Shown in pieces: positions 16,201-30,135 of a stretch of 34,535 bases of DNA. This stretch comes from a virus: positions 1 to 34,535 of IMG/VR virus record IMGVR_UViG_3300044681_000147, one strand, 5' to 3'. Position 1 is the stretch's first letter; each line of letters begins with the position of its first letter. The notes beneath the pieces are model-generated. The model did not search any database and had not been told where the DNA came from. It saw nothing but the letters and a program-made list of their open reading frames with translations. Position numbers and translations under genes: made by a program.

Positions 16201-17639
16201 TCAGTAGTTGACTTACCAGTAAATGCAGTATCAAACCTTGCTTGTGTATAGTAAAGGTTAGAACCTTCGGCAAGATTACTTGTTGTAAACGGATCAAGGG
16301 TGACTGTAGTATTGTAACTATTTCCGTCTGTAGTGGCAATAGTAAGGTTGCCACCCACACTATCAAATGTTATACTAGAAACAGCATCAATGGATACTGT
16401 ACCGGCACTATCAATCTGTCCCTGTGCATTAACTGTGAATACAGGGATAGCAGTTGTAGAACCGTATGTGCCATTGGTGACACCGGAGTTCGTGATAGAG
16501 AATACACCAGAAGCACTATCGTATGTAAGACCAGTACCACCAACAAAGTGGGCTCTAGTCTCTGTAGCGGATGCACCAATGAAAGTAAATCTACCTGTAT
16601 CTGAGTCATAGGTTAATGACCCATCACCACCATTCTGTTGAAGACCCAAGGCATTACGAGCCCTAAGTTCTGTGAAGTAGAGATTGGTGTTGCCTTCCAA
16701 TAAAGCGTTTGTGGTCTTACCACCAAAATCAGAATCAAATCTTGATGAAAGGTAATATAAGTTTGTACCTTCTGCAACATCCGTTGTTGTTTTGGTTGCA
16801 AGTCTAGCGTCAAATCTTGCTTCTGTGTAGTAGAGATTAGTACCCTCATCAAGATTTGATGTTGTTTTTTCATTAAATGCGCTATCAAATCTTCCCTGTG
16901 TGTAATACAGATTATTACCTTCAGTTAAATCTGAAGTTGTATTGTCACCAAAATCACTATCAAAACGAGCAGTCGTATAGTAAAGGTTATTACCTTCAGT
17001 CAGATTGTCTGTTGTTTTGGTTGCAAGACGAGCATCGAAGTCACTATCTACACGCCCTTGGGTGTAGTATAAGTTTGCGCCTTCGGTTAAATCTGCTGTA
17101 GTAAACGGAGCAAGGGTGATGTCTGCCGTAAATGTTGCAGCATCAGCTGTGGTAATAGTTAGTTTACCATTGATGGGGTCGTAACCAAATGAGTCTACAG
17201 TGGCGGGAGTTACCGTTGAAATTGTGGTGATTTGCCCTTGCGAGTCAACAGTTAGTACGGGAACGAGTACAGTACTGCCGTATTGGCCGGGCGTGACACC
17301 AGTTGCGGTAATCTCAATGATACCTGTGTTCGCATTATAGGTAATACCTGTCCCAGCAGAGATTGCATTTTTTGCATCTGAATCTGCTCTGGATGACTGG
17401 TAATAAAGATTTGTATTTCCTTCTGCAAAAGCATCGGTAGTAAAAGTGTTAGAATCACCAAGTGCAATTGATTGACTATTGACGGTTATCGCATAATTCT
17501 CTAATTTAGAATTAGGAATTGTTGGAAGATTGATAAGATCAATCTCACCATCAGAGCCTGCAAGTTGTGACCTATCGTCTTTTACGAAACCAGATGCCGT
17601 CAACAGACTGGACAGATATCTAGCTTTTGATTGTGCCAT
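13296..17639 (-). CDS. Giant tail-fiber protein with tandem EGxNLYY repeats
   Basis: A 1447-residue Ser/Thr/Asp/Gly-rich beta protein. Residues ~70-345 carry repeated EG(N)NLYYTxxRFDSxF units of about 25 residues, recurring near 470-500 and near 1375. The middle holds two related ~170-residue domains, each beginning (I)GQE-x-V-x-VYN and containing HGYITTQGIVRG or YGYVTTKGVVNN. The last third has fiber-type repeats (GNVTGNADTATLLETGR, GISGDITGSGVSFNGSQN) like those in T4 gp37/lambda side-tail-fiber shafts. It ends INVYNSAGTLLN, nearly the same as the fiber-like protein at 30153-33149. It is probably a trimeric long tail fiber subunit. Which T4 fiber gene it replaces is unclear. A late promoter and 5' hairpin lie upstream; AAAGGGAA is the ribosome site. 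Confidence 0.82.
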   Translation of the reverse strand: MAQSKARYLSSLLTASGFVKDDRSQLAGSDGEIDLINLPTIPNSKLENYAITVNSQSIALGDSNTFTTDAFAEGNTNLYYQSSRADSDAKNAISAGTGITYNANTGIIEITATGVTPGQYGSTVLVPVLTVDSQGQITTISTVTPATVDSFGYDPINGKLTITTADAATFTADITLAPFTTADLTEGANLYYTQGRVDSDFDARLATKTTDNLTEGNNLYYTTARFDSDFGDNTTSDLTEGNNLYYTQGRFDSAFNEKTTSNLDEGTNLYYTEARFDARLATKTTTDVAEGTNLYYLSSRFDSDFGGKTTNALLEGNTNLYFTELRARNALGLQQNGGDGSLTYDSDTGRFTFIGASATETRAHFVGGTGLTYDSASGVFSITNSGVTNGTYGSTTAIPVFTVNAQGQIDSAGTVSIDAVSSITFDSVGGNLTIATTDGNSYNTTVTLDPFTTSNLAEGSNLYYTQARFDTAFTGKSTTDLSEGNNLYYTTARADSDAKNAISVTDAGGDGSLSYNAGTGTITYTGPSAAETRAHFSGGTGVTITNGSIAIAQSVGTTDDVQFGKVTADSAALDNIVLTRRTSAPKPDASLVGGELYFDSDGAKGLTFIPRTKEGNTDVAINIGQEEVVYVYNDTGETIQNGSTIRFVGAHSDGSPTVEKTLANTPISGPIGMATQDIPDGAHGYITTQGIVRGIDTIRQTTGGPFSVGDRAYICNVQQGGWVKHAIGPDSGYPFELGTVVIADSNDGAIFINPVREHWTRARFSGKVKTSGELEAVGKVTTKAITFDGTVPEYAEGTIFYDSANGAIAFKNDVPDITMQIGQEDWVRVYNNSGSQINNGQPVHVNGVQSNTPTIELADATDANKVHAIGLATHDIANGSYGYVTTKGVVNNVDTSAFSAGDKVHVGTTPGTFSTVAPTYPYFAVDLGYVLTADSAGGGGSILVNIVDHSFEVTRTTGDARFDQDVTVGGNLTVLGTQTIAATENISIGGAFNYLNAGDTIGEANTTFTGSGLDDATLKGHYKGTATNQKFYVKIDGTGGTDTFEWGFADSASPEATGVAITGSEQELNYGIKVEFVATTGHTSGDTWKGSASPVNVDTGWFSNRNTGTSGVGYTHIGMFFDASEEKFTLVEEYDPEPEGDISLDSATLGTLKLGTLEGNVIGNVTGNADTATLLETGRTIGISGDITGSGVSFNGSQNITISTSITAGAIVNADINASAAIADTKLATISTAGKVQNSATTATNANTASAIVARDASGNFSAGTITAALIGNVTGNVTGNAGTATTLATGRNFSITGDVTASAVSFDGSGNVQLTAVIDSDGISHLKTDDLPEGTNKYYTDARARAAISAGGNLSYDPNTGVMSYTDSDRTSGQIRGLFSASGDLSYNSGTGQFSFSETYSTANELLTAIKTVDGATSGLDADLLDGQHGSYYRINVYNSAGTLLN
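16640..17110 (-). repeat. 75-bp tandem repeats coding EGxNLYYTxxRFDS units
   Basis: About six diverged copies of a ~25-residue unit follow each other in the fiber gene: D-L-T-E-G-N-N-L-Y-Y-T-x-x-R-F-D-S-x-F then a K-T-T linker. Copies differ mostly at silent and linker positions, so the register is kept by selection on protein. Extra isolated copies lie near 17400, 16190-16260 and 13600. Confidence 0.8.
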
Positions 17640-17664
17640 TAGACGTTCCCTTTAAACTCATTTG

Positions 17665-17681
17665 TGTTGGATACCCCAACA
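17665..17681 (-). promoter_or_regulatory. Stem-loop at the 5' end of the fiber-gene late transcript
   Basis: TGTTGG (17681-17676 read minus) pairs with CCAACA (17670-17665) around a 5-base loop GGTAT. If transcription begins about six bases after the late box (17690-17697), this stem starts only a few bases from the 5' end of the mRNA, where it could slow decay. No T-tract follows, so termination is unlikely. Confidence 0.5.
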
Positions 17682-17689
17682 TTCTATTC

Positions 17690-17697
17690 TATTTATA
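17690..17697 (-). promoter_or_regulatory. T4-type late promoter (TATAAATA) for the giant fiber gene
   Basis: An exact TATAAATA on the minus strand lies in the 58-base gap between two fiber genes, about 50 bases upstream of the ATG at 17639. It abuts the stop codon of the preceding gene. Confidence 0.82.
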
Positions 17698-19056
17698 CTA
17701 AATGAAATATTGTCCCGTTATATTCAGGCGGCCACTTGAATTAGATGCAAGAGTTACTGCACCATTATTTCCAGCTCCGTCTTCTGTTTCAACGAGAATC
17801 TCGTTAGTGTTTGCCATCAACCTTGCCAACAAACTATCTCCATCAGTATACGTTAATCCACCATCTGTGGCCACCGAAAATACATAATGTTGACCCGAAG
17901 AATCTTCTGAGGTGTAGGGCATACCTGTCACCTTAATATCTCCTGATCCTGTGTGACTACTCCAAACAAGTTGTAACGTGAACTGAACGGTATCTCCGAT
18001 TCTTGTGTAACGTCCAACCTGTGTCGAGTATGTCGCTGATCCAGCCGTAGAAGAACCTTCCACCACTGGAGTAAAACTACCCTTCTTAAATTCTTCCATC
18101 AAGTAATTGCTTGATGTACCACCAACATAAATGCCTGCATCAACTTTAACGTCTTCATAGGAAGGTCTGGTTGTTACTTGTGGGTACGAGTTAATCTGTA
18201 CTTCATCAGTATCACTCAGTCCAACCGTGAACGTAATACTTGTTCCGTTAACAGCAGTGTAGTCCGTATCAGGACTCATCAACACACCGTTGTTGAATAC
18301 CTTAATAGAACCGACTGTATATTTTAATGTGTTGCCTTCTGTATCAACTCCAGACAACACAGTCTGTCCTTCACTTGGTGTGAAGAAATATTCACTAAAT
18401 GTCGAGGAAGATGTGTCGAATTGGGGAAAGGCGAAGATTTGTAGAAAATCTCCCGCAGTGGCTCCCGCAGTTAAAACAACACTAGTTCCATTTGTCGCTG
18501 TATAGTCTATGTTGGGATCAAGTAATACACCGTTATTGTAAACTTGAATTTTTCCAACCGCATAACTTAATGTTCTGGTATTGTTATCAAGACCAGTAAA
18601 TGTTGTTTGTAGAGCCGTTGCAGTATAGTTGAATTCAAGGATTTGAATGTCATCAGTAATACTAACGATCTGAACTTTATCAGATGAATCGACTCCACTT
18701 GTAAGTGTAATAGACGTGTTGTCGCTATCAACGGAATAGTCTTGATTGGGATCAAGAAGAATACCGTTGAGATACAAATCTATTAAAGCCGGCGTTACCA
18801 TTAGGTCAACGCCGTTATCGTCCGCACCAGTAAATACCGTCTGACCAGAATCTCCAGAATAATAATATTCTATAAGAGATGTTGTGGTCTGAGTTGGGTT
18901 AACCGTGACAATGGATTCTGTTCCACCGACACTCTTCTTGATGAACATCCGTCCATCATATGTGTTAATCGCAACTTCGCCCAGTTCCAGCTGGTCTACA
19001 GTTGGTATTTTACCCGCTACGGCACTTCTTTTAAGCCGAAACGTAGTATTTGACAT
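17698..19056 (-). CDS. Fiber protein with three beta repeats and a putative receptor-binding tip
   Basis: A 452-residue protein. The N-terminal ~55 residues (FRLKRSAVAGKIPTVDQLELGEVAINTYDGRMFIKK) are the virion-attachment module common to phage fibers, with ELGEVAINTYDG as its signature. Three tandem ~75-residue beta domains follow (about 62-300), each containing a K-V/I-x-NNGVLLDPNxDY-type hairpin. The last ~130 residues (GSFTPVVEGSS..., YSTQVGRYTRIGDTVQFTLQLVW, LNITGQYFI) resemble the C-terminal beta-sandwich tip of many phage fibers, likely the host-contact domain. AAGGATG lies before the start. It is a good candidate for a short host-range-determining fiber. The assignment is by pattern, not by a known homologue. 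Confidence 0.78.
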   Translation of the reverse strand: MSNTTFRLKRSAVAGKIPTVDQLELGEVAINTYDGRMFIKKSVGGTESIVTVNPTQTTTSLIEYYYSGDSGQTVFTGADDNGVDLMVTPALIDLYLNGILLDPNQDYSVDSDNTSITLTSGVDSSDKVQIVSITDDIQILEFNYTATALQTTFTGLDNNTRTLSYAVGKIQVYNNGVLLDPNIDYTATNGTSVVLTAGATAGDFLQIFAFPQFDTSSSTFSEYFFTPSEGQTVLSGVDTEGNTLKYTVGSIKVFNNGVLMSPDTDYTAVNGTSITFTVGLSDTDEVQINSYPQVTTRPSYEDVKVDAGIYVGGTSSNYLMEEFKKGSFTPVVEGSSTAGSATYSTQVGRYTRIGDTVQFTLQLVWSSHTGSGDIKVTGMPYTSEDSSGQHYVFSVATDGGLTYTDGDSLLARLMANTNEILVETEDGAGNNGAVTLASNSSGRLNITGQYFI

Positions 19057-19069
19057 TTGTCATCCTTCA

Positions 19070-19102
19070 ATCCAATATTGGATATGGAACCCTATAGAGG
19101 GT
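19070..19102 (-). other. Palindrome plus small stem-loop in a fiber intergenic gap
   Basis: The gap between two fiber genes holds a perfect 14-base palindrome ATCCAATATTGGAT (19070-19083) and a 5-bp stem ACCCT/AGGGT with loop ATAG (19089-19102). Neither is followed by a T-tract on the minus strand. They may be mRNA processing or stability elements, or chance. Confidence 0.35.
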
Positions 19103-19104
19103 CT

Positions 19105-21084
19105 TTAATATGTACCACCATCTAATTGGTAAACCGTTACCGCACCAGACGTGACAGTAAATTGGTCAGAATCAAATGATGCAACGCCAGGGTTAGTAAC
19201 CGTGGCAAGTTCTGCTGCGATGGTAAGTTCATTTGTACCATCGTTATACGTAAGATCAATACCTTCACCAGCAGTAAGAAGGTTTGCTACTTCACTATCC
19301 ACCAACTGTTCAAAGGTGACACCATCAATATATAATTGACCAGTGACATCTAAGGGTTTGTTGGTTGTCCACTTATCACCCGCTGCGTTATATGTAATTT
19401 CTGCATTAGCACCGGCAATAAGAATACCAGCACCGTCAGCCTCACCGGCTGTGGTTGCACTATCCGCAAGAGTGATCTTAAGATCGTTAACAGAAAGTTC
19501 TGTTGAATTGATGGTTGTTGTTGTACCCTGAACTGTGAGGTTACCAAGGATATACACATCCCCAGAGTCACCCACCGGATTAGGATCAAGATACAGGATA
19601 CCGTTAGCAGAAGTTGTGCTAATCGTGTTACCATCAATTTTTACATTATCGACTTCAAGAGAAGTCAGTCCTGTGACATCTGTAATTGTGTCACCAAGGT
19701 TTACTGTAGTATCACCAATAACTACAGTAGAGTTAGCGAGTTGGTTGTTGTCAACACCACCAGCCGCAATAGAAACGTGTCCATTTGAGACTGAGAAATC
19801 GTTGTTATCAAAAGAAGCAACACCCTTATTATTAGAGTCAGCATCTTCACCATCGACTGTGATGATCTGACCAGAGTGTGTTACGTTGATACCTTCCCCA
19901 CCAAAAATGGCAAAGGTGTGACTGCTAGGAGAAAATGATCCCGTGTCTGTCTGAATAGACTTAAGAACCGTGTCTACAAGTGAAACTTCACCAGCATTAA
20001 CAACAAAGTCAGCTGATATGAATTGTGCAACACCCTTTGCATCAGAATCCGCATTAGCAGCGGTAATCGTTACTGTAGTACCAGAACCAGAAGTAGAAAT
20101 ACCCTGAGAAGAAGTACCTACAATATTAAACGTGTGGTTCGAAGGTGTTACAGAACTTCCATCAGTACCAACAACTTTCGCTACTGCATCGACTAGATTG
20201 ATATGACCAGCAGCAGTTGTGAAGTCTGAAGAATCAAAAGAAGCCGCACCCTTAACCGTAGTAGTAGCATTCTCAAGATTGAATGTAAATGTGTTTGATG
20301 CTGAATCAAGATCAAGAGTGATGTTACCTGTTGCAGCGAGAGTTACAGCAGAGTCTAAAATAGAAATCGCATGATCGTTAATTGTAAGGGTAGTCGCAAC
20401 CGCAACAGTACTAGCAGCGGTGAGTTGACCACGATCATTGACGGTGAATGTAGGAATCTCTGTTGCAGAACCATAACTACCAGCAGTAACGCCAGAAGAA
20501 TCGATGGTGTATGTTACGGTATCATCGGTTACGTTTGATGTTAACCCAGGCCCGCCTGCGAAGGTAAGAACTCCAGACACAGAAGAGAAAACATCTGAGT
20601 CTGACTGATCATCTGCGATACTGAAAGACACCGCAGCAATTTGACCATCAACATATGCCTTAGTTACCGCATCACTATCTAAAAGTGGGGTTGCTAGATT
20701 GATAATGCGAGAACCATTAGCATTGATGATGTTGTTGGCTGGAGTGAAATTCAAACCACCTGTTGTTGTAGAAATATAATTGCCATTAAGGTCAATATTG
20801 TCTACAATCAAATGATCCAACTTGGAGTTGGAGTCTGCGATTAATGCAGTATTTGCAGTTAGTGTTCCAAAAGGAGCAACACCCTCACCGCCTAATAGGT
20901 CAACGTAATATTTACCACCAACCACGGTATGGTTAGCAGCATCACCATTGGTCTCTGTTCCAGTACCAACATACAAACGGTCACCACCGGCACCATTATA
21001 ATATGAATACGCTAACTCGCCTTGAGCTAGCGTGCTGGGATTCCCACTAGTCCCAGAACGTTTTATTCTAATAATCGATGCCAT
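19105..21084 (-). CDS. Fiber/tail structural protein with N-terminal attachment module
   Basis: A 659-residue beta-rich protein. It starts IIRIKRSGTSGNPSTLAQGELAYSYYNG, the same attachment-type module as in the neighbouring fiber. After that come collagen-free, Ser/Asp-rich repeats of the form G-x-A-S-F-D-S-x-x-F-x-V/T-x-x-G-x-V/I-x-L-V/I (around residues 275-430 and again at the end), separated by T-I-x-G-x-G/D beta segments. It ends VYQLDGGTY, a short Gly-Gly-x-Tyr end shared with the next upstream gene product. This probably is a trimeric fiber or a baseplate-attached adaptor. Its ATG overlaps the previous stop by one base (TGATG), so the two are translated together. Confidence 0.72.
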   Translation of the reverse strand: MASIIRIKRSGTSGNPSTLAQGELAYSYYNGAGGDRLYVGTGTETNGDAANHTVVGGKYYVDLLGGEGVAPFGTLTANTALIADSNSKLDHLIVDNIDLNGNYISTTTGGLNFTPANNIINANGSRIINLATPLLDSDAVTKAYVDGQIAAVSFSIADDQSDSDVFSSVSGVLTFAGGPGLTSNVTDDTVTYTIDSSGVTAGSYGSATEIPTFTVNDRGQLTAASTVAVATTLTINDHAISILDSAVTLAATGNITLDLDSASNTFTFNLENATTTVKGAASFDSSDFTTAAGHINLVDAVAKVVGTDGSSVTPSNHTFNIVGTSSQGISTSGSGTTVTITAANADSDAKGVAQFISADFVVNAGEVSLVDTVLKSIQTDTGSFSPSSHTFAIFGGEGINVTHSGQIITVDGEDADSNNKGVASFDNNDFSVSNGHVSIAAGGVDNNQLANSTVVIGDTTVNLGDTITDVTGLTSLEVDNVKIDGNTISTTSANGILYLDPNPVGDSGDVYILGNLTVQGTTTTINSTELSVNDLKITLADSATTAGEADGAGILIAGANAEITYNAAGDKWTTNKPLDVTGQLYIDGVTFEQLVDSEVANLLTAGEGIDLTYNDGTNELTIAAELATVTNPGVASFDSDQFTVTSGAVTVYQLDGGTY

Positions 21085-21455
21085 CAGTATTGGCCTCCGT
21101 TAATTGTTTGTTCTTGCAGTAATGTACTTGCTTCGAAATTCTCTGTTGTTGTATTGTAAATTAAAATACTTCCGTTAACTTTGGTCGTAGTATCTACTCC
21201 AGCCAACTCATTAATAGAAGTACTTCCACCTACAGATTGTGCTGTCCACAATCCTTCTGTAGCATTCCAAACAAGCGAATCACCATCTTCTTTTCCGGAA
21301 GTATCAATTCCACGAATCTCGTCAATACTGACAATCCTTGGATCGATTTTTCTTACGGGTTTACCGACTGTTACTTTCTTAACAATAGTAACATTCTTTG
21401 TAGCCACATTGTCTACATTGATAGTGTTACCATCGGTTCTAACTCTTATCGCCAT
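21084..21455 (-). CDS. Small fiber-associated protein ending GGxY
   Basis: A 123-residue protein. The basic N-terminal third (KNVTIVKKVTVGKPVRKIDPR) is followed by two copies of an E-I/L-x-G-V/I-D-T-S/T-x-K-x-D/N-G-x-x-L/I-V/I-x-N beta-hairpin unit (about 47-70 and 79-105). The unit GKEDGDSLVWNATEGLWTAQ is common in phage fiber shafts. It ends TINGGQY. It is coupled to the next gene (one-base stop/start overlap) and follows a small protein after 6 bases, so it is likely a short fiber or connector. No specific name is justified. Confidence 0.6.
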   Translation of the reverse strand: MAIRVRTDGNTINVDNVATKNVTIVKKVTVGKPVRKIDPRIVSIDEIRGIDTSGKEDGDSLVWNATEGLWTAQSVGGSTSINELAGVDTTTKVNGSILIYNTTTENFEASTLLQEQTINGGQY

Positions 21456-21461
21456 TAATCG

Positions 21462-21821
21462 TCACCTTGTAACAGACGGTGAAACTTGAATCTTTCCTTG
21501 TAGTACTCTTTCAACAATGGTATTATCGCTCGAGTCCTGATAGGAAATTTCAACGTCATAGACGTATCTGCCCCTAGAACTCAGAGCATCAGTTTGTGCA
21601 TTTGTGAGGGAAAGGATTAAGACCCCATCGGTTGCAGGGTCAGCGATAGTGGCAGTGAAGTCCACGACTTCATCACTATCCGTAGAATTGTAATTTCTTT
21701 TCATCTTAGCGGCCGCACTGTGTCCAGTCAAATCTTTAACGGAACCGTCTTGTTCCACAAGATTTAACTCAATCGCAACGTCTGCGCCTTGATCTATAGT
21801 TAGGTCTTCGTAATGTGCCAT
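21462..21821 (-). CDS. Ig-like small tail/baseplate protein
   Basis: A 119-residue protein with an immunoglobulin-like beta pattern: DLTIDQGADVAIELNLVEQDG, then VKDLTGHSAAAKMKRNYNS, FTATIADPATDGVLILSLT and GRYVYDVEISY. This resembles the N-terminal domain of upper-baseplate/fiber-adaptor proteins of several phages, an observation of pattern only. The start codon and its GGAA ribosome site lie inside the 3' arm of an 18-bp hairpin that spans the late promoter (21821-21882), implying a strict late-only translation control. It is first in a short operon with the next two genes. Confidence 0.65.
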   Translation of the reverse strand: MAHYEDLTIDQGADVAIELNLVEQDGSVKDLTGHSAAAKMKRNYNSTDSDEVVDFTATIADPATDGVLILSLTNAQTDALSSRGRYVYDVEISYQDSSDNTIVERVLQGKIQVSPSVTR

Positions 21822-21882
21822 TCCCAGTTTCCAACTTAGTGAATACTATCATGTTTTATTTATATAAACCGGAAACTGGAAA
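21821..21882 (-). promoter_or_regulatory. RBS-sequestering hairpin with the late promoter inside its loop
   Basis: On the minus strand the 18 bases TTTCCAGTTTCCGGTTTA (21882-21865) can pair along their whole length with TAAGTTGGAAACTGGGAA (21838-21821), with four G-U pairs and no mismatch. The 3' arm contains the GGAA ribosome site and the A of the ATG at 21821. The 26-base loop contains the TATAAATA box. RNA coming from upstream genes would hide the start, while RNA starting at the late promoter lacks the 5' arm. T4 uses this arrangement for genes e, soc and 49. Confidence 0.8.
21857..21864 (-). promoter_or_regulatory. T4-type late promoter (TATAAATA) inside the hairpin loop
   Basis: An exact TATAAATA on the minus strand, 36 bases before the ATG at 21821 and directly after the 5' arm of the hairpin. 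The expected start of transcription is near 21850, downstream of that arm. Confidence 0.82.
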
Positions 21883-21888
21883 AATGAT

Positions 21889-22596
21889 TTATTCGGAACT
21901 AATTTCGTACACTAGGTCTTCTTGAAGGTCTTCTGAAGTTTCTCTCCAATCCCAAATAAATGAGACGGTCAATCTCCAGCAATCGGTCTGAGCTGCATGA
22001 TACAAAAGTTTATCTCTTTCGTGATAACCACCAAAATATCCCGCTTTACATTGCCAACCTTTTACATCCTCAAGAGTGACAATCTGTCCGTTATCTGGAT
22101 TGCGATATTTAAAGTGACCTTCTCCCGTTTCAGACCACGTGCAGATAAGGTTGTATGCAAAAGCGTTTGCATTGTTGTGCCATGAGATATATCCGCCCGG
22201 AGGATAGAAACAGAATAGAGCCGCATTTTTCGCACCAAGAAAATTAACCAACTTGGTATTGCACTCTACAATTCTATTCATCAATTTCAGACGATAATCA
22301 GGATTGTTTTTTCTGGCATAGTCTGAAAAACGATTGTGATCCATCTGGTGCGGTTTAAAACCATAACCAACTAAATGATCAGGGAACCCTTCATGTTTAT
22401 CTCCACTATCAACGATATATCTGAGATAGTCTGTAGACATCCACTTCTCACGGGTCTCTCTATCATTCTCATTTTCACAATGAAGATGGTTGTTTTTAAC
22501 AAAATCTTCAATATCATCGGTAAGAATTTTTCTACAATCTTCCAGAAGTTCCAAGAATTCTGGATTCTTGATAGGAATATCTTTCATTTGACTCAT
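21889..22596 (-). CDS. 2OG-Fe(II) oxygenase, Asp/Asn beta-hydroxylase-like
   Basis: A 235-residue protein with a double-stranded beta-helix core in its second half. Visible motif: FCFYPPGGYISWHNNANAF (128-146) with H140 as first iron ligand, then H200 (LLYHAAQTD) as second, and R208 (WRLTVSF) as probable 2-oxoglutarate anchor. The usual acidic ligand of H-x-D/E is replaced by Asn (H140-N-N142). Aspartyl beta-hydroxylases also work without the carboxylate ligand, so this does not imply inactivity. It would use 2-oxoglutarate and O2 to hydroxylate a protein side chain. Its ATG overlaps the glycosyltransferase stop by 4 bases. It is last in a three-gene early-type cassette. Confidence 0.72.
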   Translation of the reverse strand: MSQMKDIPIKNPEFLELLEDCRKILTDDIEDFVKNNHLHCENENDRETREKWMSTDYLRYIVDSGDKHEGFPDHLVGYGFKPHQMDHNRFSDYARKNNPDYRLKLMNRIVECNTKLVNFLGAKNAALFCFYPPGGYISWHNNANAFAYNLICTWSETGEGHFKYRNPDNGQIVTLEDVKGWQCKAGYFGGYHERDKLLYHAAQTDCWRLTVSFIWDWRETSEDLQEDLVYEISSE

Positions 22597-23321
22597 AAAA
22601 TATAACCGTCTTTATTCAATCCACAGGAGTAATGTCTAACAATAACTTCGCCTTCAGGTCTGGTAAGAGCCCAGTTCCAAGCATTATAATAATTCCACCG
22701 AAGATCGTCATCAAAGATTCCAATCTTAAGGTCTTTATATTTCGGTTCTTTCTCAGTTAACCACCACAAGGAGAATTGATCCCATGAACGGAGACTTTCC
22801 CCATAACCATCGGGCCACCATTCACGATCCATTTGTCTACGAGTGAGTTCCCACCAATCATCCATAAACTCACGAACGATAGGTTTGGTCATATCATAGA
22901 GACAGACACCCCCACACAACCAAAACTTATCCTTACCGTATGGAGTATCGAATTCCCACTCAGCATAGGAATAACTTCTTTCCTTGGTAAGTTCCGTAAA
23001 GACCATATCATGATCTTTCATCTCATCCCAAACTTTTGCGATGTCTTCATGTTCAACTTCCATGTCGGCATCAAGATACATGGTGATGTCATAGGGAGTT
23101 TTAGCCATCCCCCAAAGTTTAGCACGGTAATGATCATTACACCAAATAACTTGATCAAAGATATCACGATGAGTTTCTTCGAACATCCACTCTTCACAGA
23201 AAAGAGTGATCTTTGCATCTTCGTAATAGTCTAGAATAGACTCAGCAAGATTGATTGCGTATCGATAGAAGTTAATCTTACGAGAGGCAACAATTACAAA
23301 ACCCTTACTCTTCTCCGACAC
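22593..23321 (-). CDS. Glycosyltransferase, GT-A fold, DxD-containing
   Basis: A 242-residue protein with a Rossmann-like start (GFVIVASRKINFYRYAINLAESI), strand ITLFCEE and MYLDADMEVEH (81-91). The last contains the D84-A-D86 metal/nucleotide-sugar motif of GT-A enzymes. A later WLCGGVCLYD (~134-143) and SWDQFSLWWL (~178-187) resemble the acceptor-side segments of glycogenin/GT8-like families, and VRHYSCGLNKDG closes the protein. It has no membrane segment, so it acts in the cytoplasm. The acceptor could be host surface precursors, phage DNA or a virion protein. The neighbouring hydroxylase and sequon-rich repeat proteins favour the last. It overlaps the upstream gene by 17 bases. Confidence 0.78.
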   Translation of the reverse strand: MSEKSKGFVIVASRKINFYRYAINLAESILDYYEDAKITLFCEEWMFEETHRDIFDQVIWCNDHYRAKLWGMAKTPYDITMYLDADMEVEHEDIAKVWDEMKDHDMVFTELTKERSYSYAEWEFDTPYGKDKFWLCGGVCLYDMTKPIVREFMDDWWELTRRQMDREWWPDGYGESLRSWDQFSLWWLTEKEPKYKDLKIGIFDDDLRWNYYNAWNWALTRPEGEVIVRHYSCGLNKDGYIL

Positions 23322-23778
23322 TCTCAGTTTCCTCTACTTTTTTCAATTCATCCATAAGGATCATAATAGCATAAAGGTTTACTTCAACCTTATTCTTTGC
23401 TCTACGTAGTTTAGATTTAAGAGGACGGTTTTTAGAGTCTTTAATCTCAGGAACTTCGAAGGCTTCTAGTTTGTAATTGAAGAGTTCTTCCAACTTACGA
23501 GCTTTAGCGTGTTCAAGTTGTTTTTGTTTCTCTTCTTCAGACTCTCGTTTCTTACGGATATTTCGTTCATCCGTATTTGCATTGATGCTCTCTTCACCCA
23601 AAGCTTCCACAACTTCATTGAAGTCTGGATTTGGATTGCCATCTTTATCAGTCTTACGGAGTTTCATCACCTGTCGAGTGATTCTACCCACGTCATCTTC
23701 AATCTCAAGGATGCAGTTCAGCATTTGTTTTTCGCCGGTTTCCCAGAATGCATTATCCATCCATTTTCTATAACTCAT
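23305..23778 (-). CDS. Charged coiled-coil protein of unknown function, first in the cassette
   Basis: A 157-residue, Lys/Glu-rich, largely helical protein. A structured start (YRKWMDNAFWETGEKQMLNC) is followed by an RKTDKDGNPNPDFNE loop, a long charged coiled-coil (about 65-100, RNIRKKRESEEEKQKQLEHA), a second helical part and an acidic end. I do not recognise the family. AGGAG precedes the ATG. It is the first gene behind the near-consensus sigma-70 promoter and also has a late-like box (TATAAATT). It overlaps the glycosyltransferase gene by 17 bases. It may be an assembly partner for the modifying enzymes or unrelated. Confidence 0.65.
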   Translation of the reverse strand: MSYRKWMDNAFWETGEKQMLNCILEIEDDVGRITRQVMKLRKTDKDGNPNPDFNEVVEALGEESINANTDERNIRKKRESEEEKQKQLEHAKARKLEELFNYKLEAFEVPEIKDSKNRPLKSKLRRAKNKVEVNLYAIMILMDELKKVEETESVGEE

Positions 23779-23799
23779 TTCATCATCTCCTGTGTGCGA

Positions 23800-23807
23800 A
23801 ATTTATA
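23800..23807 (-). promoter_or_regulatory. Late-promoter-like box (TATAAATT)
   Basis: The minus strand reads TATAAATT, one base off the T4 late consensus, 22 bases before the ATG at 23778. Together with the sigma-70-type promoter just upstream it could give early and late expression of the cassette. The distance is short, so it may be fortuitous. Confidence 0.4.
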
Positions 23808-23825
23808 TTATATAGACATTCTATT

Positions 23826-23854
23826 AGTATATAACATTATGCAAAGTTTGTCAA
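23826..23854 (-). promoter_or_regulatory. Near-consensus host sigma-70 promoter
   Basis: On the minus strand TTGACA (23854-23849) is followed after exactly 17 bases by TATACT (23831-23826), matching 11 of 12 consensus bases with ideal spacing. Its -35 box begins 4 bases after the stop codon of the large repeat gene, and it points at the gene starting at 23778. It is the only such promoter I found; the other promoter boxes in this block are of T4 late type. Early transcription by unmodified host polymerase is likely. Confidence 0.78.
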
Positions 23855-23857
23855 GGA

Positions 23858-26800
23858 TCAAGCCGAACGCACGTATAATGTGTATGTCTGAATCGTTGAC
23901 GATATACTATCGATTGTTGTACCTGTATAGTTTCCTACAAACGTTCTTTGATAATTACCAAGGAACCCACGAGTATAGTCACCAATGAAGTCCCTTGCAT
24001 AGTTGCCCGTGTAATCTCCAAGGAAGTCCTGTGTCGATACACGAGTCGAGATACGAGAATAAGCTGAGTTTCTTGTTCTCGTGAAAGCCGAAGTTCTGGT
24101 ACGTGTAGAGTCTCGTGTCGAGTTGCGAGTATATTCGCCAACATAATCTCGTGCATAATTCCCTACGAAATCGCCAGCAAAATTAGTAACCCTATCACGT
24201 GAGTAGTTACCTTCAAAGTTACGAGTATAGTCCCCAGTATAATTACCAGTATAATCACCAAGGAATCCACGGGTGTAATCACCAATGAAGTTTCTTGAGT
24301 AATTGCCAATGAAATTACCAGCGAAGGTATTTGTACTGTTTCGTGTATACTCACCAAGGAACCCACGAGTATAATCACCAACGAAGTTCTGTGTAGTAGT
24401 ACGTTGACTAACACGAGTATATGTTGACGATCTGGCTCTGGTGTAGTTAGAAGTTCTGGTACGTGAATATGCAGAGTATCTTGTTCTCAAAGAAACTCTG
24501 GTGTAGTTACCAGTGTAGTTACCAGTGTAGTCACCAAGGAACCCACGAGTATAGTCGCCAATGTAGTCGCCAGCAAATCCACGTGTGTAGTTACCAGTAT
24601 AGTCTCCAGCAAATCCTCTGGTATAATCGCCAATAAAGGTTCTTGAATAATTACCAACGAAGTTCCTTGCATAATTCGAATAACGAGTTCTGGTTGATGT
24701 TCTGGTATAGGCTGACACTCTTGTACGTGTTGATGTACGTGTCGAAGTTCTGGTGTAGTCGCCTGTACCAACATAATCACCAACATAATCTGTGGTGGTA
24801 TTTGTAAAATCACCCGTATACACGCCAGCGTAGTTACTTACTCTGGTATAGTTCGCTGAATAATCGGTAGTCGCATTAGTATAGTCGCCTACGAAATTAC
24901 CAGCGTAATATAAAGTACGAGAATAATTCAAAGTATAATCGGCTTCACCAGCATAATCGCCCACGAAATTACCAGCGTAATAACCTACACGAGTATAGTC
25001 TCCCAGATAATAGAGAGTACGTGTGTAGTTACCTGTGTAGTATAATGTGTTTGCATAGTCACCAGTGTAGTAAACTGTTCCACTATAGTCACCAGTGTAG
25101 TATACGGTTCCACTATAGTCACCAGTGTAGTATACGGTTCCGCCATAGTCACCCAGATAATACAGAGTAGCAGCAACATAGTCACCAGTGTAATAGACCG
25201 CACGTGCGTATGAATTAGTGATCGCACGGGCCACACTTCTACTAAACCAAGAACCATATGGAGGTGGTGTTGACCTAACATACCAAGAATTTCGTGTATA
25301 GTATAGAGTTCTGGTATAATACGCTGCGCCAATCCTAGTACGTTGATAGTTTGTACCAGCAACAGTTCTAGTACGAGTATAGTTTACTCCAAGTGCTCTA
25401 TTACGAGTATAGTTTACTGCGGCTGCTCTAGCACGAGTATAGTTTACTCCGACTGCTCTATCACGTGTGTAGGTTACACCAACTGCTCTAGCACGAGTGT
25501 AGTCTCCGGTTCCAGTTGTTGTTCTTTGATAGTTGAGTGTTCGGGTACTGGTACGTGTAGAAGTTCTCGTATAGTTGGCAGGCCCAATATAGTTACCAAG
25601 ATAATTGGCAGTTGGGGTTGAGGTTCTAGTAGAAGTTCTCGTATAGTTGCCAGGCCCAATATAGTTACCAACGAACCCTAATGTTCTTGTATAATCCCCA
25701 GTGAAGTTCGTGGTATAGTTGCCAGGCCCAATGTAGTTACCGGCATAATTGGTTGTGGCATTTGTGTAGTTACCAAGGAAGTTACCGGCATAATCTCCCA
25801 CATAGTTACGGGAATAATTCCCAACATAGTCACCAGCGAATCCTCTAGCATAGTTAGAAGTTCTAGTACGACTGTATGCTGAGACTCTAGCCCTAGTATA
25901 ATTTGAATAACGAGTTCTAGTACTAACACGAGTATAAGCAGAAATTCGTGTACGAGTACTTGTTCTAGTATAATTAGAAGTCCTAGTTACCTGAGAGTTT
26001 AATAACGATACTCGTGTGTAGTTACCAGTATAGTTGCCAGCAAATCCTCTGGCATAATCACCAAGGAACCCACGAGTATAATCGCCTGTAAATGTTCTCG
26101 CATAGTTACCAGTATAGTCACCAAGATAACTAGACACACGTGTACGAGTATAATTGGATACACGGTTTCGACTGTAATTGCCGATGAAGTCACCCACAAA
26201 GTTTGTGACTCTATCTCTTGAATATGTTGAATTACGAGTTCTAGAATAGTTCGATATTCTTGTACGTTGTGAATTTCTCTGACTATCTCTAGTATAATTT
26301 GATGTACGTGTTCTAGCGTAATTGCCGATAAAGTTACCGGCAAAGTCAGTTACCCTATTTCTAGTGAAAGTTGAGACTCGTGTTCTAGAATAGTTTCCGA
26401 TATAATCGCCAATATAATTGCCGGCATAATCACGAGCGTAATTACCAATAAAGTCTCTGGTATAATTACCAGTGTAATCGCCAGCATAATTCGAAGTACG
26501 AGTCCTCTGCGAAACTCTGGTATATGTTGAACCACGAGTTCTGCTGTAAGTCGAAGTTCTTGTGCGAGTATATGCAGAATTTCTATTACGGGTATAGTTA
26601 GTTTCGACCGTTGTCTTTTTTGTATCTGTGGCCGTTCCAACCGCAGTCCAAGTACCGGCATCGGTTGGAGCTCCTTGTGATGCTGACCGCAGTTGATATG
26701 ATCCGATATTTCCAGACGTTGCTCTTAAGTTACGAACAAACGCACCAATGGTATCAGAGATATCACTATCCAACATTTCTTTAAGATCACCACCGTCCAG

Positions 26801-27370
26801 TCCTACTGGACGAACGGTTGTTGGAGCAGTCATTGCTGTTCTTTGATAAATGTTATAATTTACTGTAGTCCCATCTGTTTGGGTATCAGAAAAAACATTA
26901 GAAAGAGCAACACCATAATCTGCGCCAGGCGAAGAACTACCTAAACGATAGATGCCAGGATATGAGGATGTTGCAATTCTAGAATTGATTCTTGTTGCCA
27001 ATGATTGCATATCAGCATCAGGCATTTCATAGAAACTTGGAGTACCACCACCATCAGTGTTATATCCAATAGGACGTAATGCACCAGCAGAAGGAGATTC
27101 TGTTCCAGCCTTCTGATAAACTGTTGTGGTTGTAGAACCAGACGTGATAGCAGTGGCGGGGTGAGTACCCACCGCTTGATTGTAAAACGTGTTTACGTAT
27201 GTACCAATAGATGTATTACCTGTGGCGGTAAGAGTTATATCACTCACACCTGTTGTTGCGGCAAGGTTATCCTTACCGACAACATAAGCAATATAGTTCT
27301 CTTCCGAGGTGGTCATCTCTTTGAGATCACCATTCACCCCAGATAATTTTAACGGTGTATTAGAAGACAT
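23858..27370 (-). CDS. Giant tetrapeptide-repeat virion-associated protein A
   Basis: 1170 residues. The N-terminal cap (~1-255) is a soluble-looking domain with NTSIGTYVNTFYNQAVGTHP and two YQ-type modules (TVYQKAGTESP, YNIYQRTA), ending GTWTAVGTATDTKK. Residues ~256-1145 are built almost wholly of four-residue units [G/R/S]-[N/D/T]-[Y/F/R]-[T/S/A/I], as in GNYTGDYTRDFIGNYA. This gives a Tyr/Arg/Asn/Thr/Gly composition nearly free of Lys, His, Met and Cys. A central island (near residues 680-720, YVRSTPPPYGSWFSRSV) breaks the repeat. The end TYTLYVRSA is shared with the paralogue. GGAG precedes the ATG. Its place among fiber genes suggests a virion fiber or surface protein; it is not proven. 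I know no established function for such repeats. Confidence 0.75.
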   Translation of the reverse strand: MSSNTPLKLSGVNGDLKEMTTSEENYIAYVVGKDNLAATTGVSDITLTATGNTSIGTYVNTFYNQAVGTHPATAITSGSTTTTVYQKAGTESPSAGALRPIGYNTDGGGTPSFYEMPDADMQSLATRINSRIATSSYPGIYRLGSSSPGADYGVALSNVFSDTQTDGTTVNYNIYQRTAMTAPTTVRPVGLDGGDLKEMLDSDISDTIGAFVRNLRATSGNIGSYQLRSASQGAPTDAGTWTAVGTATDTKKTTVETNYTRNRNSAYTRTRTSTYSRTRGSTYTRVSQRTRTSNYAGDYTGNYTRDFIGNYARDYAGNYIGDYIGNYSRTRVSTFTRNRVTDFAGNFIGNYARTRTSNYTRDSQRNSQRTRISNYSRTRNSTYSRDRVTNFVGDFIGNYSRNRVSNYTRTRVSSYLGDYTGNYARTFTGDYTRGFLGDYARGFAGNYTGNYTRVSLLNSQVTRTSNYTRTSTRTRISAYTRVSTRTRYSNYTRARVSAYSRTRTSNYARGFAGDYVGNYSRNYVGDYAGNFLGNYTNATTNYAGNYIGPGNYTTNFTGDYTRTLGFVGNYIGPGNYTRTSTRTSTPTANYLGNYIGPANYTRTSTRTSTRTLNYQRTTTGTGDYTRARAVGVTYTRDRAVGVNYTRARAAAVNYTRNRALGVNYTRTRTVAGTNYQRTRIGAAYYTRTLYYTRNSWYVRSTPPPYGSWFSRSVARAITNSYARAVYYTGDYVAATLYYLGDYGGTVYYTGDYSGTVYYTGDYSGTVYYTGDYANTLYYTGNYTRTLYYLGDYTRVGYYAGNFVGDYAGEADYTLNYSRTLYYAGNFVGDYTNATTDYSANYTRVSNYAGVYTGDFTNTTTDYVGDYVGTGDYTRTSTRTSTRTRVSAYTRTSTRTRYSNYARNFVGNYSRTFIGDYTRGFAGDYTGNYTRGFAGDYIGDYTRGFLGDYTGNYTGNYTRVSLRTRYSAYSRTRTSNYTRARSSTYTRVSQRTTTQNFVGDYTRGFLGEYTRNSTNTFAGNFIGNYSRNFIGDYTRGFLGDYTGNYTGDYTRNFEGNYSRDRVTNFAGDFVGNYARDYVGEYTRNSTRDSTRTRTSAFTRTRNSAYSRISTRVSTQDFLGDYTGNYARDFIGDYTRGFLGNYQRTFVGNYTGTTIDSISSTIQTYTLYVRSA
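23930..26605 (-). repeat. 12-bp (4-codon) repeat tract A
   Basis: Some 220 units of 12 bases in register with codons, for example minus-strand GGTAACTACACT-type and GGTGACTATACT-type words and CGT/AGA-rich alternatives. Synonymous sites vary widely between units while the amino-acid pattern holds, so the tract is maintained by protein selection and not by fresh slippage. Exceptions are local near-identical 30-base units near 25051-25170. Confidence 0.85.
25051..25170 (-). repeat. 30-bp tandem repeat coding a 10-residue YYTGDYSGTV unit
   Basis: Two back-to-back identical 30-base copies (25081-25110 and 25111-25140) are flanked by diverged copies on both sides. Each codes for the decapeptide YYTGDYSGTV (circularly permuted), so the four-residue register is replaced here by ten. 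The identity points to a recent duplication. Confidence 0.85.
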
Positions 27371-27393
27371 AATTTACTCCAAATCCTTACGAG

Positions 27394-27401
27394 TATTTAT
27401 G
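27394..27401 (-). promoter_or_regulatory. Late-promoter variant (CATAAATA)
   Basis: The minus strand reads CATAAATA, one base from the T4 late consensus. It overlaps the stop codon of one repeat-protein gene, 24 bases before the ATG of the next at 27370. Position is right for a promoter of repeat protein A. Confidence 0.5.
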
Positions 27402-30135
27402 CATATCTAACATACAAGGTATATGTTTCAATCGTTTCTATTCCCGACCCAATAGTGGTTCCAATATAATTTCCTACGAACCCACGGTTATAATCCCCCG
27501 TGAAGGTTCTACTGTAGTTCCCGACATAGTTACCAAGAAACTCTCCAGTATAATTTCCTACATATTCACCGATAAAACTAGAAGTTCTTGTTCTAGAATA
27601 TGAAGACACTCTGTCTCTACTGAAATGGCTCAGTCTGGTATAATCTACTAAAGTTATCCCGTCCGTTCCGATATAATTACCAATATATCCCTGCAAACTA
27701 TTTCTGGTGTATTCCCCGATATAGTTACGAGAATAGTTTCCGATAAAGTCTAGAGATGATGTACGTGTTGAAGTTCTGGTGTATGCAGAATTTCTATCCC
27801 TAGTGTATGTAGATGCTCTATTTCTAGTAAAAATGGAATCTCTTGTTCTGGTAAATGTCCGTGAATAATTACCAGTAAAGTCTCTACTGTAATTGCGAGA
27901 ATAATCACCCGCAAAATCTCGTGTAAAGTTTCTTGAATAATTACCAATAAAGTCTCTACTGAAATCAGCTGAGGTGAAATCACGATTATAGGACGAAACC
28001 CTAGTTCTTTGAAAGTACCTAGTGTAGTTACCAGTGTAATTGCCAGCAAAGTCTCTACTGTAATTAGAGGTTCTAGTTTGAGTACGCAATCTCTGATAAC
28101 TTCTTAAATAGTTACCAACAAAGTCCCCAATATAGTTACCAACAAAGTTCCCAATATAATCGCCAAGATAACCACGTTGATAATTTGAAGTTCTGGTTCT
28201 ATTGAAATTTCTAGAATAATTAGAATTTCTTGTTCTGGTGAAATTTGCAGTGTACCAAGTTGTTACGGGAGTATTTACGGCACTATCACGGGTGAAATTC
28301 CCAGTTGAAGTACGGTATCTTGGGAATGGTTCCCCGCCTGCCCAACGAACATAAGCCCAGTTAACATACCAAACAGCTCGTTGATAGTCCCCAGTATAGT
28401 ATGTTGTGTAAGTTTGGGTTCTTGAATAAGCCAAAGGCGTAGTAGACGATCTAGTCCTAGTGAAATTCAACCACTCGCTGTGCCAATAGACGTTCCAACC
28501 GCCGGCGATTCGATAATATGTTGACACACGAGCATAATCTCCCGTATAATCGATAGCCATATTACGATTGTAATCGCCAATAAACCCTCTAGAGTAATTA
28601 CGAGAATACTCACCAAGAAAATCTCTAGAGAAATTAGAAATTCTAGTACGTTGAAAGTTAGTATTACGGTCTCTTGTGAAAGCCGAAGTTCTTGTTTTAA
28701 GAATTTCTCTCGAATAATCGCCAGTATAGTTACCCGCAAAATCTCTAGAGTAATTACTTGTTCTTGTACGTGTTGATGTACGAGTATAATTACGAGCATA
28801 ATTGCCGATAAAATCTCTAGAATAACCAGAGGTTCTTGTTCTATTATAATTCGAAGTTCTTGTTCGTGTATAATTTCTAGAATAATTAGAAATTCTAGTT
28901 CTAGTGAAAGCCCTAGAATAGTTTGAACCTCGTGTTCTAGTGTAAGCAGAATTTCGATCTAGAGTAAATGTTGCAGTATAGTTACCAGAAAAAGTTCTGG
29001 AATAATCGCCCGTGAAGTCTCTAGTATAGTTACCAGTGTAATCGCCAGCATAATTACTTGTTCTGGTACGTGTAAACGCACGAGCATAATTGCCCGCATA
29101 GTTTCCTATGTAATTACCAACATAGTTCCCTTCAAAACTTCTGGTGTAGTTACCAATATAGTCTCTAGCGTAATTACCCGCATAATCCCCAGCAAATGCA
29201 CTTGATCGTGTACGAGTGTAATCCATCGAATAGGTTGACGATCTATTGCGATAATATGTCGAAACACGTGTACGAGTGTAATCAACTTCAGATGTTGATC
29301 TTTTCTTGTTGGTTGCAGTTCCGACAGCTCTCCAAGTACCGGCATCGGTTGGAGCTCCATCGGTGCTTGATCTTAATTGATAAGAACCAACGTTTCCTGA
29401 TATTGCACGTCTTGTCTTTGCACGTTGACCCAAGGTAAATTTAATCGCACGATCCGTCATCGTGGTGATACCTTGGAATGTTACACCATCACTGGAATCT
29501 CTTTGAATGCAAGCAAGATTTGCAACAGTACCATCACTGTCTACAATAGAAGATGGAGCGGCTTGATTTTCTCTTCTCCAAATATGATAGTTTACATCAG
29601 TATCTTCCGTTACGGTATCCGTGAAAACGTTATTGATGTACTTTGAGTAATCTGCGCCAGGAGATGCAGAACCCAGTTTAAATTGACCGATATAATCGGA
29701 CAGAGAGATACGTCCATTTAACCTATCGACCAGAACATTCATGTCCGAGTCTGCCATTTCGTAGACACCCTCAGACCCAATACTTGTAGGCCCATCCGTG
29801 GTAGGATTGAAGTATCCAATAGGTTTATGGAAGTCAGAATCGGATTCGTCTGCTGTACCAGCAATCTGATACAGTGTGGTTGTTACTGACCCAGACGTAA
29901 TCGAAGAGGCAGGATGGGTTCCTACCGCTTGATTATAAAACGTGTTTACATATGAACCAATAGACGTGTTTCCTGTAGATGTGAGTGTAAGGTTACCCAC
30001 ATCACCAGAATCAGATTCGACAAAGTGTGTACCGATCAAATATGATAGGTAGTTTTCTTCTGTTGAACCGAGTCTTTTTAAATGGCCTTGATCCGGAGAA
30101 TGTAACTTTAATGGCTTACTCTTCGCAATTGGCAT
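27397..30135 (-). CDS. Giant tetrapeptide-repeat virion-associated protein B (paralogue of A)
   Basis: 912 residues with the same plan as its downstream neighbour. The cap (~1-280) begins KSKPLKLHSPDQGHLKRLGS and contains NTSIGSYVNTFYNQAVGTHP and GNVGSYQLRSSTDGAPTDAG. A tetrapeptide-repeat body follows (~282-885; GNYIGNYAGNYARAFTRTRT and similar), then a Trp-rich island in the centre (YRIAGGWNVYWHSEWLNF, YVNWAYVRWAGGEPFPRY). The end is TYTLYVRYA. The body is Arg-richer and shorter than in protein A, so the two differ mainly in repeat number and island. AAGGATAGG precedes the ATG. Same reading as for A: probably a virion fiber/surface protein, function unknown. Confidence 0.75.
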   Translation of the reverse strand: MPIAKSKPLKLHSPDQGHLKRLGSTEENYLSYLIGTHFVESDSGDVGNLTLTSTGNTSIGSYVNTFYNQAVGTHPASSITSGSVTTTLYQIAGTADESDSDFHKPIGYFNPTTDGPTSIGSEGVYEMADSDMNVLVDRLNGRISLSDYIGQFKLGSASPGADYSKYINNVFTDTVTEDTDVNYHIWRRENQAAPSSIVDSDGTVANLACIQRDSSDGVTFQGITTMTDRAIKFTLGQRAKTRRAISGNVGSYQLRSSTDGAPTDAGTWRAVGTATNKKRSTSEVDYTRTRVSTYYRNRSSTYSMDYTRTRSSAFAGDYAGNYARDYIGNYTRSFEGNYVGNYIGNYAGNYARAFTRTRTSNYAGDYTGNYTRDFTGDYSRTFSGNYTATFTLDRNSAYTRTRGSNYSRAFTRTRISNYSRNYTRTRTSNYNRTRTSGYSRDFIGNYARNYTRTSTRTRTSNYSRDFAGNYTGDYSREILKTRTSAFTRDRNTNFQRTRISNFSRDFLGEYSRNYSRGFIGDYNRNMAIDYTGDYARVSTYYRIAGGWNVYWHSEWLNFTRTRSSTTPLAYSRTQTYTTYYTGDYQRAVWYVNWAYVRWAGGEPFPRYRTSTGNFTRDSAVNTPVTTWYTANFTRTRNSNYSRNFNRTRTSNYQRGYLGDYIGNFVGNYIGDFVGNYLRSYQRLRTQTRTSNYSRDFAGNYTGNYTRYFQRTRVSSYNRDFTSADFSRDFIGNYSRNFTRDFAGDYSRNYSRDFTGNYSRTFTRTRDSIFTRNRASTYTRDRNSAYTRTSTRTSSLDFIGNYSRNYIGEYTRNSLQGYIGNYIGTDGITLVDYTRLSHFSRDRVSSYSRTRTSSFIGEYVGNYTGEFLGNYVGNYSRTFTGDYNRGFVGNYIGTTIGSGIETIETYTLYVRYA
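27480..29290 (-). repeat. 12-bp (4-codon) repeat tract B
   Basis: About 150 four-codon units of the same consensus as tract A, interrupted around 28230-28550 by non-repeat sequence coding the Trp-rich island. As in A, units differ mainly at synonymous positions. Confidence 0.85.

Follow-up and report, generated by a model that had tools for sequence, protein, structure and literature searches.

A hairpin over the start of a tail-fibre operon

The window analysed here, a stretch of 34,535 nucleotides of viral DNA, carries on its minus strand a tail-fibre operon immediately downstream of a small gene cassette, which raises the question of how the fibre genes might be kept off until late transcription when RNA may reach them from further upstream. 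Eighteen consecutive minus-strand pairs (14 Watson-Crick and 4 G.U) join positions 21882-21865 with 21838-21821, exactly as a sequence-only reading of this DNA had claimed. The 5' arm (21865..21882; RNA UUUCCAGUUUCCGGUUUA, TTTCCAGTTTCCGGTTTA in coding sense) and the 3' arm (21821..21838; RNA UAAGUUGGAAACUGGGAA) enclose a 26-nt loop (21839..21864), which opens with the T4-type late promoter box TATAAATA (21864-21857), directly abutting the 5' arm, so that the box lies in the loop as that reading had it. The outer 12 pairs of the stem are strong and the inner six are weak (two G.U, one U.G and three A-U). Both the ribosome site and the start codon are involved, also as claimed: the 3' arm covers the SD-like motifs TGGA and GGGA, which are weak (at 8 nt and at 0, respectively), and its last base, 21821, is the A of the ATG. 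The box is placed such that the predicted late RNA, which probably starts near 21851, would lack the 5' arm, and the fold calculation confirmed that RNA starting at about 21850 is unable to form the hairpin. No Rfam covariance model matched positions 17000-28000 of the window at E<=1.

The guarded gene (21462..21821, minus strand) encodes a 119-aa LtfC-like protein (L-shaped tail fibre assembly; phrog_1084, E 6e-21; phrog_3304, E 7e-17), with a match to PF23926 that was below the cut-off. It is followed on the same strand, after a gap of 6 nt, by a gene for a small protein (21084..21455), by that of a 659-aa structural protein whose start overlaps the preceding stop (19105..21084; phrog_15769, phrog_697), and by a tail fibre gene (17698..19056; phrog_38058, phrog_17885). 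The operon had been described as one of fibre and baseplate genes; the fibre part of this description stands, with LtfC-like and fibre-type genes, and a baseplate role of the genes directly downstream would be putative. Elsewhere in the window, two perfect (12/12) sigma-70 promoter matches at 28521-28550 and 32230-32258, both on the plus strand, lie antisense inside large structural genes and possibly reflect antisense RNA or chance.

An early-type cassette upstream

The cassette, flanked by large structural genes, is read in the order U3-U2-U1 on the minus strand. U3 (23305..23778), the conserved first gene, encodes 157 aa of unassigned function. U2 (22593..23321) is a predicted GT-A glycosyltransferase with a DxD motif (AlphaFold2 pLDDT 90.7), with Foldseek matches to glycogenin/LgtC (E 8e-9 to 3e-8) and a match to PF00535 (E 0.001) that fell below the cut-off. 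U1 (21889..22596) has a predicted 2-oxoglutarate/Fe(II)-oxygenase fold (pLDDT 94.8); its best Foldseek matches were bacterial prolyl-4-hydroxylase and AlkB at E about 1e-6, but with TM scores of only 0.3-0.4, and no match was found in Pfam. The U1 stop lies 6 nt from the 5' arm, and ribosomes terminating there could melt the outer part of that arm.

A sigma-70-type promoter, recognised by sequence match (TTGACA-17-TATACT, 23826..23854, minus strand), precedes U3. In near relatives of the window both hexamers are retained and the spacer has diverged. C48C1, a complete relative, is annotated with a late sigma factor, a late regulator and a sliding clamp, and there TTGACA-17-TATAAT precedes the genes for DNA polymerase, clamp, methyltransferase and late sigma factor; the window, at 34.5 kb, is a fragment that does not include this region. 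Because this counterpart consensus precedes replication and late-sigma genes, the cassette promoter is, as far as promoter sequence can tell, of the early/replication type, in agreement with the earlier description of an early-type cassette, and would place an early or middle transcription unit upstream of the LtfC-like gene.

The motif CTATATAC upstream of the cassette was also considered as a promoter class and was dropped, as it is not enriched in C48C1. In loci L074-L131, the region upstream of U3 holds a sigma-70 box, an intrinsic terminator within ~10 nt and then CTATATAC before the cassette, an arrangement that looks like an attenuator or boundary element. Given a terminator ~10 nt after the sigma-70 box, the sister-clade cassette promoter may yield a short RNA only.

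Predicted opening of the start site

The cost of opening the start region was calculated for read-through RNA and for late RNA, the latter taken to begin 6 nt after the box. For the window these costs were 16.3 and 6.5 kcal/mol, respectively, close to the means of the hairpin group (17.5 and 6.1), compared with 7.7 and 5.0 at cassette loci without the hairpin. The same calculation gave 15.9 and 0.4 for T4 gene e, so that by calculation the lock on read-through RNA equals that of gene e in strength and the late form is less open here. On these costs, of the same order as for gene e, read-through RNA is predicted to be shut and late RNA open.

We consider it very probable that the hairpin is a T4-type late-gene translation lock at the fibre operon. 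RNA from upstream, either made from the sigma-70 promoter at 23854 and running through the glycosyltransferase/oxygenase cassette or due to late read-through, would contain both arms and fold, closing off the LtfC-like gene's ribosome site and start codon. Late RNA starting at TATAAATA would lack the 5' arm, because late transcription begins inside the loop, and would be translated. Such a lock would keep the tail-fibre operon silent until late transcription sets in and would permit an early-expressed cassette within a late gene cluster. The DNA itself shows that the arms pair, that they have evolved as coding-strand RNA, where the hairpin lies and that it co-occurs with a separate promoter or terminator of the cassette; from this we infer the ends of the transcripts, real read-through and a block of translation. 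The mechanism proposed in the sequence-only reading is well supported at this level, by pairing, covariation and predicted opening costs.

Distribution of the hairpin among relatives

A search with the guarded protein as query gave 49 loci plus phage C48C1, and an exact TATAAATA was present upstream of the guarded gene in all 50; in the enlarged locus set it was present in all except L086. The window's own arm sequence is confined to near relatives. An alignment of the glycosyltransferase U2, blind to leader and hairpin, collected 80 additional loci; a protein-pattern search with U1 only found none, its single-sequence patterns being too strict. Most of the U2-collected loci have unrelated arms that form another inverted repeat around the same TATAAATA, as in L105 (AAACCTCAAGATGT/ACATCTTGGGGTTT), L114 (GGCCTCAGATTGT/ACAATCTGAGGTTT) and L102 (AACCTTGAACTGT/ACAGTTCAGGGTT). 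The mean stem z was -2.13 in 66 distinct cassette leaders versus -0.25 in 18 leaders without cassette (p 0.0013) and -0.66 in 38 other TATAAATA-led genes, where pairing is weaker (p 7e-4). Among the nearest cultured relatives by guarded gene, P-HM1, ACG-2014f and Pelagibacter phage Mosig have neither box nor stem, and Melnitz-1 has the box and lacks the stem.

Several lineages without cassette (L018-L021, L024, L028, L039 and L041-L049) share CGAGTTACTTAGYATCG, a motif conserved in the leader and placed between TATAAATA and the LtfC-like ATG. A photosystem gene, sought as a host marker, was found in 0 of 16 related records, and a cyanobacterial host is not supported.

Two further leaders with TATAAATA were noted. 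In C48C1 (L133:30983-31034, gene start 81032), L141 and L142, TATAAATA lies in a hairpin hiding GGAGAGAG, a similar second switch in which the arms differ and pairing is retained in two relatives; the gene that follows encodes an 89-aa membrane/coiled-coil protein, possibly spanin-like. A holin-like gene (phrog_689/phrog_937) in C48C1 (L133:18380-18510, gene start 68507) and L144-L146 has TATAAATA ~90-120 nt upstream within a long structured leader; C48C1 and L144 show the enclosing stem clearly, L145 and L146 less so.

With cut-offs for hairpin and promoter that were set after inspection of the data, a promoter and/or intrinsic terminator upstream of the cassette was found at 42/42 distinct loci with the hairpin versus 1/24 without. 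The corresponding Fisher value of 7e-17 overstates the evidence, since the relatives are not independent and the hairpin needs few changes on the U2 tree. It requires two there, the carriers being the window's clade of 6, a clade of 35/35 and L070, which has the hairpin with a terminator only. An honest count, as read from the tree, would be about two or three concordant origins or events with one exception, L038, which has the promoter without the hairpin.

This distribution bears on the possibility that the hairpin insulates the operon from read-through of every kind, chiefly from a late promoter near 27401 (CATAAATA at 27401-27394) before the gene for a 1170-aa protein, and that it sets the ratio of fibre proteins rather than their timing. 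Such RNA could well arrive, as no terminator was found on the minus strand between the 1170-aa gene and the LtfC-like gene. However, the hairpin follows the cassette promoter or terminator and not the late read-through that would be common to all lineages, and the sister-clade terminator would already stop read-through from the preceding gene, which makes this explanation rather unlikely.

The inverted repeat could also be an intrinsic terminator that halts upstream transcripts and is escaped by loop-started RNA without the 5' arm, so that insulation would take place at RNA synthesis with the same outcome as a translation lock. In some relatives a T-run does follow the stem (7 of 8 positions in L105, L109 and L112, and 6 of 8 in L001), and in these few the stem could also terminate transcription. 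No T-run is present, however, in the window (best 3/8) or at most hairpin loci, the 26-nt loop is long, and the stem overlies the start codon or SD-like motifs; as the function of the hairpin in general, termination seems improbable.

Selection on RNA pairing

The 66 cassette leaders, which were not selected for the hairpin, were submitted to an arm-swap test in which 3' arms were exchanged between phages. Their own arms paired at a mean of -14.8 kcal/mol versus -9.0 kcal/mol after swapping, and none of the 20,000 permutations was as low (p<=5e-5); the same p was obtained with 29 non-redundant leaders (-13.4 versus -8.0 kcal/mol). On LtfC leaders without cassette, the test was not significant (p 0.066). 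Covariation, which the sequence-only reading had named as a check on the hairpin, was thus found: the arms are wholly different between lineages yet complementary, and within the sister clade double compensatory changes occur at 6/12 pairs (14 cells, 0/500 shuffles). Stem pairing stands at 93.5% in the window's clade, and the changes there are one-sided and pairing-preserving only, with none on both sides. The pairing therefore appears to be conserved by selection as RNA, on one-sided changes only in the window's own clade.

Stem mismatches were G.U in 53 cases versus A.C in 17 (p 2e-5), and the sense strand folded 2.5 kcal better than the antisense strand (p 5e-5). Because G.U exceeds A.C and the sense strand folds better, selection would seem to act on coding-strand RNA, which points away from a DNA operator. 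A DNA-level dyad, that is, a regulator binding site for the late promoter, would fit arms that closely flank the promoter box, but besides this asymmetry the arm sequences are wholly different between lineages and the spacing of the 3' arm tracks the start codon, so that we hold this explanation to be highly improbable.

In the window alone, the hairpin is less striking. Its duplex energy of -20.1 was matched by 38 of 10,000 dinucleotide shuffles and reached at 17 of 701 coding-strand ATG positions. The 111-nt stretch proposed earlier for folding (RNA 21900 to 21790) was no better than its shuffles (z -1.0, 27/200); the 74-nt hairpin did stand out (z -2.8, 3/200). On single-sequence evidence alone the hairpin is suggestive, and the comparative evidence from the relatives puts it well beyond what chance would be expected to give. 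An inverted repeat arisen by chance is hardly credible: pairing as good as that of the arms is reached at 1.9% of random placements in the window and further 12-nt inverted repeats are present, but the arm-swap results and compensatory changes across relatives contradict it.

Comparison with known systems

A hairpin that hides the ribosome-binding site of a late gene has been described for T4 e, soc, 49 and I-TevI (PMC3014915), the first three being the precedent that the sequence-only reading had invoked, and further cases are I-TevII/III, segB and mobE (PMC2988022). In the part of that gene-e survey drawn on here, cyanophages are mentioned solely as lacking gene e (PMC3014915), and the part of a cyanophage review used here covers late promoters and mentions no hairpins (PMC2984593). 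The present data would extend to a tail-fibre operon of abundant uncultured Kyanoviridae-like phages a classic T4 mechanism whose known cases are mostly lysis genes and homing endonucleases. They also offer a natural experiment, in which presence or absence of the lock goes with whether the upstream genes have their own promoter or terminator, and a testable rule for how T4-like phages accommodate early-expressed accessory genes in late clusters. It is conceivable, and we propose it tentatively, that the lock is a recurrent translational insulator: when an accessory cassette in a late cluster gains an early promoter, a promoter-in-loop hairpin would evolve at the junction downstream of it, on more than one occasion and from unrelated sequences, and the same phages would reuse it at further genes, spanin-like and holin-like ones among them.

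The closest likeness is to the T4 gene e leader, in which the 5' arm lies upstream of or at the late promoter, the 3' arm lies on SD/AUG, and early RNA is locked and late RNA open (PMC3014915); the read-through opening costs computed above are similar. T4, however, guards lysis with a stem of ~8-9 pairs and two late boxes, and its lock is experimentally proven, whereas here a fibre operon would be guarded by an 18-pair stem and the lock is predicted from sequence. The soc and gene 49 leaders are likewise cited in PMC3014915 as structures that sequester the RBS of late genes in early transcripts; with our simple arm measure the soc structure does not emerge, and its geometry therefore differs. 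In T4 I-TevI and in Aeh1 mobE/T4 segB, the position of the late promoter likewise deprives late RNA of the 5' strand of the RBS-hiding hairpin (PMC2988022), but these hairpins guard homing endonucleases inserted in early or middle units, whereas the hairpin described here would guard a structural operon downstream of an inserted early-type cassette. Judged by the defining features that the DNA of the window and its relatives shows, the proposed switch belongs to the known class of T4 e, I-TevI and mobE; its new elements are a fibre operon as the guarded unit, arms that covary in dozens of leaders and a link with a cassette predicted to be transcribed on its own.
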